Shown one piece after another: positions 1-3,400 of a DNA stretch of 64,000 bases. Origin of the DNA: Malus domestica (lineage: Eukaryota > Streptophyta > Magnoliopsida > Rosales > Rosaceae). A model generated the notes under the pieces. It searched no databases. It saw only the letters and a program-made list of their open reading frames with translations, and was not told where the DNA came from. The stretch's first letter is position 1; every line of letters begins with the position of its first letter. The translations under genes were made by a program, and so were the position numbers. The stretch covers positions 4,662,501 to 4,726,500 of the forward strand of contig NC_091675.1 in NCBI RefSeq assembly GCF_042453785.1, written 5' to 3'.

Positions 1-99
1 GGCTTGTTCTTTTGCTATTTATTTTTTTTTCATTTTTTCCTTATACATCACATTTGAGATATCTGACTCATATTACTGTTTTCTTTTTAATCTCCGCAG

Positions 100-815
100 C
101 TTTCAACCTTGATTTCTTCACAGATGTAGAGGATTTATCTTATCTTCAGTACAAGATTGATCAGGATCCTCGTTCGGCTAAGTACAGGTTTGATTATATA
201 TGATCTTATGGGAAAAGACTATGAAAATCTTGCCTTGGCTTTTTTTTTAATTTTTATTAATAACGAAAATGTTTCTTGTTTATATTGCAGAAAGCTTACT
301 AAGGAGCTTTGTGAAGTAGTTGAAGATTACAGTCTTGTCAATTTTGCAACCTTAGATATCCAGGCATGCCAGTCCCTATCCACTTTACTCCCGACCTCTT
401 GAATTTTTTATGCCTTGTGTTCTCACATGCTACTTTTCAGGATAAAGAGAGTGTAGGGAATCTAGTTAAACTGATAGACAAGAGCAATGGGTACATTTTT
501 GCTGGTATAGACGCGAGTGCCGTAGAATTCAGCAAGATTGCAGTCGGTCCTGTTGATTGGGATTATTACAGATATCCTTTTTATTTTGATTCTACAATAA
601 AAAGTTTGCGGGTAGCTCCTTATCTTGTCAAGATACTTGTGAATTATACTACAAAGTATTTGGAATTGTCCTTTAGCCACATCAGTATCTGCATTATCAA
701 GAAACGACATTTTCTGTTTCGCTTAACAAAGTAGCTCACAGTTGCAGCAGTGCAAGAGAAGTACATGAAGGATGACGAAACTTTTGACGACGACAATGAA
801 CAGCTGAGAGACTGA
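100..815 (+). CDS. QQT1: GPN-loop GTPase QQT1/GPN2-like, C-terminal part
   Basis: Only the 3' end is in the window. Visible exons are about 100-187, 291-363, 441-571 and 740-815 (TGA 813-815). They read continuously as NLDFFTDVEDLSYLQ, then KLTKELCEVVEDYSLVNF, DKESVGNLVKLIDKSNGYIF and a short acidic tail ending EQLRD. This matches my recollection of the C-terminus of plant QQT1, a GPN2-type GTPase. GPN proteins are SIMIBI-class GTPases implicated in RNA polymerase II assembly and nuclear import, and Arabidopsis QQT1 is needed for early embryo division. The nucleotide-binding motifs lie upstream, outside the window. Frame phases agree at every junction: phase 2 at 187/291, 0 at 363/441, 2 at 571/740. 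Two of the three introns have non-GT donors and are described separately. The left exon edge at 100 is inferred from the CAG acceptor. Confidence 0.85.
364..440 (+). other. GC-AG intron in the QQT1-like gene
   Basis: The exon ends ...GATATCCAG and the intron begins GCATGCC and ends CTACTTTTCAG. Removing 364-440 joins LDIQ to DKESVGN with frame kept, as expected for the family. No GT donor gives the same join. It is 77 bases long, close to the minimum plant intron size. Confidence 0.75.
572..739 (+). other. U12-type AT-AC intron in the QQT1-like gene
   Basis: The donor ATATCCTTT at 572-580 is an exact match to the U12 AT-AC consensus. A branch-site-like TCGCTTAAC lies at 719-727 (7 of 9 to TTCCTTAAC), with the branch A 13-14 bases before the terminal AC at 738-739. 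Removing 572-739 joins DWDYY to RVAAVQEKYMKDD in frame and leads to a TGA. Reading through instead gives an unrelated tail. No GT-AG pair restores this tail. Confidence 0.85.
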
Positions 816-2680
816 TAATATGTATGTATAAGAGAATGATGCTTGTCTAGTACAGCTTAGTTTGTTGGTCGCATGCTTCAGAAGTCCATGACTGTTCCCT
901 CACTGACTTCAGATCGGAAGAATTCTCAACGTCATGGATACTTTATGCCGACAAGATCAGGCAACTCCCGCTAAAGTGACAATTTTTGTATGATGTATAT
1001 ACCTTTTAGTCATGCCGGATTATTTATACAAATATGTTACTTGCATAGAACTGTTTCCCAAAGAGATTGAGCATATGATGATGTGGGTTTTATAACAAAA
1101 CTGTGGTTTAACGGCGTAGATTAAGTTTTTATGTCGATGATCTGTTTAAGAACTCAATAATTATGCTCGCTTCTGTATACGTATAGTATAGTAGTCAGTG
1201 GATATCAAGTTTGTTTATGTAAAAGTCGCGGGAGCACACGCAGGCAGTCTGCTTGTGTGAAGTGAAGAAAATGCCTTCACTTCTGTAGATGTTGAAGGCT
1301 TCTGGAAGCCCTTAACATGGTTTAAGTGTTGTTGACATAAATGTCTGAGGGTGACGAAGTTGGGGCCCCCTTTTTCAAGTGGAAAAACTGCCCCGCTCCA
1401 AAATGAAGACTTGGGTGGGTGTAGGGACACTTGGTGAGTAGGTTGGATGTCAGAGTTTTTGTTCTAGATGGAATGAGACGGGAATGATTATCTGTATGAA
1501 TCGCGCAGATGATGATATATTTTATAATTAAATTCAAACAAATATTGTATAAAACCAGAATCATATTCGAATTAAGCAGCAATGTGACCAAATTTTCCGA
1601 CATAAGATATTTTCTTCTAAAAAAAATAATTATGATATATATTTGAATTTAGCTTATCCTATTGTAACGTAATGACTTGGCAGTTGGCCAGGATATTTAA
1701 AAAAAAATTATATTTATTTATTATTTCGGACAATGATGTCTATAAAAAGACATATTTAATTATTGAATTCATTGAAAAGATATATCGTATTAGATTTATG
1801 CAAGTCGAAGTATTTTAAATATCCTTCAATAGTTCAACCAACTAAACGCAACTATCACGAGAGCAAATACTAATTTCATTGCCTCTCGTTTTTTCAACAA
1901 TAAGATTGAGGGTTATCCTATTAGTACTAACAAACATGATTAAGACGTATTACATTTGAAATATCTCACCCATCACAATAATCTTGAGATTTCACTTCAA
2001 ATAATATTGCGTGCTTCACAAGTTGTGCTTTCACAAATTATAATATTGATTTATGGTCTTTCTTCAGGGATCTTAGATTTGGTATTAGCATGGAATGGAC
2101 CAGCAGTGACGAATCATTTAAATTAGTTATTTGCTAATATCGTATTACTTACTAAAATAACTGCAATTATTGCTTTGCTCCTACTCCATTGCTCTAAAAC
2201 GTAATCAAATACGTCAAGGCATACATGATGTTCTATTTAATCTTTGTCATCCACAAGTTATTGAAAAATGGCCGGGAAATTAAATATGCAATTATGGATA
2301 AACATCCATACAAAATTTGCATACATTAGATTTTTTTTTTTTTTCACTTTTGTGACTAACAAAATTATACAATTAATACAAGATTTAAAATCGTTTGACG
2401 TCTAATGTTTGTTCCCATTTTCGTCCTCATATACATGAAAATTAGATTCATGTGTTTCATCATTAGAGCTATAAATGGGAGGGGAAATTGAATTCATGGC
2501 AAGTTTACTTAACGTGAGTTGGATAAGTAAGAATTGTAGAGCTTAAAAAGTAAAAGATGAGGCAAGATGAACTAGTCGTGTAATTTGAATTCTAATTTTC
2601 AAGTATACACTGTAGATTTTAAGGGTGTTTCTTTTTCGATTCCATATGCGTTAGTAAACATAGGAAAAACTAGGATTAAA

Positions 2681-2719
<39 letters not shown>

Positions 2720-3400
2720 TGACAAACGATATTATCTACATTAAGGGAGGTGTTTAGTTTCACAATGAGCTAGTAATAATGTGGTTCAAATTCGCCTTTG
2801 GCGAAAATCGAATCTAAAGCTTCTCACTTACAAATAAACAAAAATATTATTAGTCCGTAGTATTAAGTGACATAAATTAAAATTATTTAAATATACTGAA
2901 TTTAATTCTCATTCTCTGTAAATTAAAATATCAATGACACATATAATAAAGGTAAATACTCTTATGCCATACACGCCAAACTTCCATGGCATTTTCAACT
3001 AATAGTTCATGGTCCTAGTGGGCCAAGTGCTCCTTCTAGAAGACATTATCTTACTCGTTTATGATTTTCACAATTACATGCGCCGCTCAATATTTTATGA
3101 CTAAAAATGTTTTTCTGTAAATTTGGACCAATTCAAATTTCAACCCACTTCCCCAAGCAAAGCATCAAGACCAAACCATGTAATTAACTAAATTTTATAT
3201 AATATTTTCTTACCATTTTCTCTGTCCAGACTCCAGACATCCAGAGTCTGCGTATTTGCAAAAGAATAATCTCAGACGTGCATATATGGCATTATTTCCT
3301 TCCCCTCCAAGAAGTCAAACCCACCCCAAAATCCATATGGGTAGCAGAAGCTTCCGTGGCATTTTGCTTTTGTCAAACCATTCCTTTGACTGGAGGCTCG
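816..3400. other. Intergenic region with 3' UTR of QQT1 and AT-rich DNA
   Basis: The first 200-400 bases are the likely 3' UTR of the GTPase gene. The rest is AT-rich and contains an (ATT)13 microsatellite and a degenerate SINE-like or MITE-like stretch near 2740-2840, which resembles 58730-58830. I see no supported coding region. Confidence 0.5.
2681..2719. repeat. (ATT)13 microsatellite
   Basis: Uninterrupted ATT units run from 2681 to 2719 in intergenic DNA. Such arrays usually vary in length between individuals. Confidence 0.95.

Follow-up and report, generated by a model that had tools for sequence, protein, structure and literature searches.

The GPN-loop GTPases are a family in which, according to a review, 100% of the genes contain minor introns (PMC6865273). 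Arabidopsis has three GPNs, of which GPN2 is At5g22370 (PMC6748027), or QQT1. QQT1 is described as a U12-intron gene that is mis-spliced in 31k mutants, whose phenotype is rescued by QQT1 expression (PMC5853960). It is also listed among the 31K-dependent genes (PMC3422263). QQT1 splicing is defective in both U11/U12-31K and U11-48K mutants (PMC5853960; PMC4892727); in u11-48k plants it fails (PMC4892727). The initial annotation of the apple locus described here called AT-AC introns very rare; this holds for Araport11 as a whole, where they make up 81 of 119,097 introns or 0.1% (PMC5716242), and does not hold within the U12-type class of Arabidopsis, where their share is 26% (PMC7367187 Table 2).

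We analyzed a window of 64,000 nucleotides (contig C15, positions 4662501-4726500) from a 651-Mb apple genome of 19 contigs; all features given below by window position lie on the forward strand. The last intron of a gene at the start of this window, intron 9, resembles the Arabidopsis QQT1 intron in its GPN gene, assigned by elimination, and in its U12 class, a likeness that covers gene and class. Because the apple gene holds a second U12 candidate, intron 2, either of the two could match the published QQT1 intron. The likeness to GPN-loop GTPase minor introns in general is one of family level (PMC6865273). Compared with the plant AT-AC U12 subtype, intron 9 is the same in terminal bases, donor, branch motif and spacing, and the only difference found is in two branch-region bases that depart from the consensus. 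It looks like an ordinary AT-AC U12 intron in a gene already known for a U12 intron. Among the papers listed for Malus together with the minor spliceosome or AT-AC U12-type introns, none is listed as reporting it, and a search for GPN2 with minor introns returned no papers.

Gene identity and exon-intron layout

The gene model, built from the window plus 4.4 kb fetched from the genome, predicts a protein of 306 residues from ten exons separated by nine introns, with the start codon about 2.04 kb upstream of the window. Within the window the gene model places exon 7 at 100..187, supported by the PF03029 match, intron 7 at 188..290, exon 8 at 291..363, intron 8 at 364..440 and exon 9 at 441..571, followed by intron 9 (572..739, 168 nt) and exon 10 (740..815). 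A second copy of the gene lies on another contig of the same genome, at C8:6308797-6311592. The three neighboring introns 7, 8 and 9 end in GT-AG, GC-AG and AT-AC, respectively; the C8 copy likewise has GT-AG at intron 7, and it shares the GC donor of intron 8 (CAG|GCATGC ... TTTTCAG). Outside the window, a tRNA-Pro gene with anticodon TGG sits roughly 175 bases 5' of the start codon (L010:714-785; C15:4660213-4660284). An Rfam scan of window positions 1-3000 gave no matches.

The encoded protein matches PF03029, the GPN-loop GTPase profile, at 269.6 bits (cut-off 27). Among proteins of solved structure it comes closest to a GPN-loop GTPase 3 chain (E 1.7e-56); of the five PDB sequences that it matches within an E of 0.001, none is named GPN2. 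Two further gene pairs of the same genome were examined. A peptide of a gene on C17 scored 147.7 bits against GPN3, where the corresponding part of the window gene scored 99.1; a stretch of a gene on C16 scored 134.8 and 133.6 bits against GPN1 chains. Since Arabidopsis has three GPNs, the C17 gene is GPN3-like and the C16 gene is GPN1-like, the window gene would by elimination be GPN2/QQT1.

The GPN3-like gene pair (L041:1109-1311; L042:1050 onward) carries a U12-like intron of its own, which reads GTATCCTTTTT ... TCCTTAATC ... TAG in the C17 copy. The C9 copy has GG where the C17 copy has the AG of TAG, and splicing of this intron may be impaired or non-canonical there. For this gene (L041), an AT-AC intron whose donor is shifted was considered and dropped; the C17 copy (L042) has a plain GT-AG end, TAG|ACAC.

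Splice signals and reading frame at the last intron

U12-type introns carry the 5' splice site consensus ATATCCTT and the branch consensus TTCCTTRAY. Exon 9 closes with TACAG at position 571, and the donor ATATCCTTT follows immediately at 572..580, in agreement with the consensus and identical in the C8 copy. The motif CTTAAC lies at 722..727, with candidate branch adenosines at 725 and 726. These precede the final base of the intron by 14 and 13 nt, respectively, and the intron terminates in CAC at 739 (3' splice site AC, 738..739). Scored by eye, the branch stretch of the window copy, TCGCTTAAC, fits 7 of the 9 bases of TTCCTTRAY, and that of the C8 copy, TTGCTTAAC, fits 8. Both copies hold CTTAAC near the 3' end with an A at 13 or 14 nt; the optimum distance from branch to 3' end is given as 11-13 nt for U12-type introns (PMC3584512).

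Exon 9 ends in ...DWDYY plus two bases of the next codon, in phase 2. Joining 571 to 740 restores the frame, giving ...DWDYYR|VAAVQEKYMKDD..., and exon 10 then reads VAAVQEKYMKDDETFDDDNEQLRD up to a TGA stop at 813-815. The C8 copy has the same AT...AC ends and its frame is restored as well.

How often would such signals arise by chance? The donor ATATCCTTT occurs twice in the window, where 1.09 occurrences would be expected; two or more are seen in 27 of 100 shuffles. The strict composite of ATATCCTTT, CTTAAC and AC at U12 spacing is found once, and 12 of 200 dinucleotide shuffles contain one or more. A relaxed AT-AC composite has four donors in the window, and 53 of 200 shuffles have that many; the relaxed composite for both subtypes has five, a count reached in 112 of 200. 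By itself, the motif is unremarkable and lends weak support. Intron 9 stands above chance because it begins at the end of a coding exon, lies in phase 2, restores the frame and is kept in the duplicate gene.

The initial annotation had placed an AT-AC U12-type intron at 572..739 in a QQT1/GPN2-like gene, and class and coordinates hold, with the gene name following by elimination. It read the donor correctly, its CTTAAC 13-14 bases before the terminal AC is the motif found here, and the in-frame conserved tail that it predicted upon intron removal is retained in the C8 copy. The observation is confirmed, and by its sequence intron 9 looks like the genuine U12-type AT-AC intron that was described.

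Intron 2, outside the window at C15:4660694-4660786 (L010:1195-1287; C8 copy L009:49-156), starts with GTATCCTTT and ends with CCTTTACGTGAATATAG in the C15 copy. In C8 the nine-base donor is identical and the end nearly so, and both copies contain CCTTTAC, whose A precedes the end of the intron by about 11 nt. Its branch stretch, AGCCTTTAC, agrees with TTCCTTRAY at only 6 of the 9 bases. Intron 2 is probably another U12 intron, belonging to the GT-AG subtype. Pieces of the 5' part of QQT1, together with introns, are also dispersed in the genome (L030-L038 and L040, on C2, C3, C5, C8, C10, C15 and C17), and several of these pieces retain the intron 2 donor. All ten places examined, chosen from 59 listed, match QQT1 DNA across at least one intron, and two are 99% alike. 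The pattern resembles capture and amplification by a putative transposable element.

The duplicate gene and other readings of the C-terminus

The C15 and C8 genes have equal lengths in each of the nine exons compared (exons 2 to 10), and 45 of 276 codons differ, 36 of them synonymously. Exon 9 differs at 9 of 131 bases and exon 10 at 6 of 76. Intron 9 of the C8 copy, also AT-AC, is 141 nt long, 27 nt shorter than in the window. It shares the first 10 of 10 bases (ATATCCTTTT) and the last 19, including the branch motif and the AC end (GCTTAACAAAGTAGCTCAC). When the first 10 and the last 30 columns of the alignment are set aside, 72 of 101 positions are identical and a further 27 columns are gaps. 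Other introns compared between the two copies keep 15 to 20 of their last 20 bases, so the conserved ends of intron 9 are what would be expected of any intron and are not special. The joined tail VAAVQEKYMKDDETFDDDNE is common to both copies.

If splicing did not occur at 572, either always or in a used isoform, the protein would end in the read-through tail YPFYFDSTIK...RLTK. The frame is indeed open from 572 onward, until a stop codon at 732-734, and the initial annotation, which gave YPFYFDSTIK... as the false C-terminus that a standard gene finder would produce, was right as a reading of the C15 letters. However, the C8 copy continues past the same point as YPFHLILQ-stop, which speaks against the tail being under selection, and exon 10 is kept in frame and length in both copies. 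We consider read-through very improbable.

Alternative splice pairs were enumerated from all GT-AG, GC-AG and AT-AC combinations at least 60 nt apart, with donors at 541-699 and acceptors up to 759; pairs were judged by frame. In the window copy, sixteen pairs leave the tail in frame, namely five with donors upstream of 572, ten with donors downstream, and AT-AC 572/739. Fourteen of the 15 others are GT-AG or GC-AG, for example 604/741, and could in principle let the major spliceosome remove the intron through nearby ends; the remaining one is a second AT-AC pair, 665/739. The five upstream donors, however, delete part of the exon end, and the ten downstream pairs have no counterpart among the five found in a similar trial of the C8 copy. 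Those five are the AT-AC pair and four with upstream donors, which cut into the exon end ...VGPVDWDYYR. AT-AC 572/739 is the sole frame-keeping pair that spares the exon end in both copies, and removal through GT-AG or GC-AG ends seems scarcely credible.

The major spliceosome might instead handle the AT-AC intron itself. U2-type AT-AC introns do exist (PMC6717393), amounting to 0.01% of the U2-type introns of Arabidopsis (PMC7367187 Table 2). A full ATATCCTT donor together with CTTAAC at 13-14 nt, as seen here, are instead the signals described as defining the U12 type (PMC3584512), and we give this reading almost no weight.

The minor spliceosome and the probable splicing of intron 9

Finally, we asked what the genome itself offers in minor-spliceosome RNAs. 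It holds two U11 loci over the cut-off, two U12 loci over and one under it, and nine U6atac loci over it. The search of the genome for U4atac detected none; the same search gave U4atac in 0 of 14 controls, so this is uninformative as an absence, and the controls also gave 0 of 14 for U11, U12 and U6atac, though all three were found in this genome. Complementarity was tested with the best two loci each of U11, U12 and U6atac, allowing G-U pairs. The 5' regions of U11 and U6atac are complementary to the splice site at 572..580: U11 nucleotides 2-9 to ATCCTTTT, and U6atac nucleotides 8-16 to TCCTTTTTA. U12 contains GTAAGGA, and by eye CTTAC and GTAAG pair with one branch A bulged; the longest computed U12 match for intron 9 is a different stretch of 6 bp and is likely irrelevant.

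In the favored reading, ATATCCTTT would be recognized first by U11 and then by U6atac, and CTTAAC would pair with U12, leaving the branch A bulged 13-14 nt before the end of the intron. Exons 9 and 10 would then meet in phase 2 and encode DWDYYR|VAAVQEKYM. The sequence shows the motifs, the restored frame, their retention in the duplicate gene and snRNA genes complementary to the donor; we infer the U12 pairing and the splicing in the plant. With the published U12 intron of Arabidopsis QQT1, mis-spliced in minor-spliceosome mutants, also in favor, it is highly probable that the minor (U12-dependent) spliceosome excises the final intron of this GPN2/QQT1 gene. No processed copy with the exons joined at 571/740 was found in a search of the genome (0 matches).

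A more far-reaching proposal is that one gene needs both spliceosomes for its U12 GT-AG (2), GC-AG (8) and U12 AT-AC (9) introns, so that the output of GPN2 would report sensitively on how active the minor spliceosome is, and that regulated retention of intron 9 would give the C15 gene, and it alone, a copy-specific C-terminus. This is speculative, and we think it very unlikely.

For annotation, non-canonical introns are reported to be missed by ab initio gene finders (PMC5716242), and a gene finder limited to GT-AG introns would be expected to give this conserved gene an incorrect C-terminus; the gene also contains one GC-AG intron and probably a second intron of U12 type. An intron of this kind in apple agrees with the published picture of QQT1 as a main target by which minor-spliceosome defects disturb plant development (PMC5853960).
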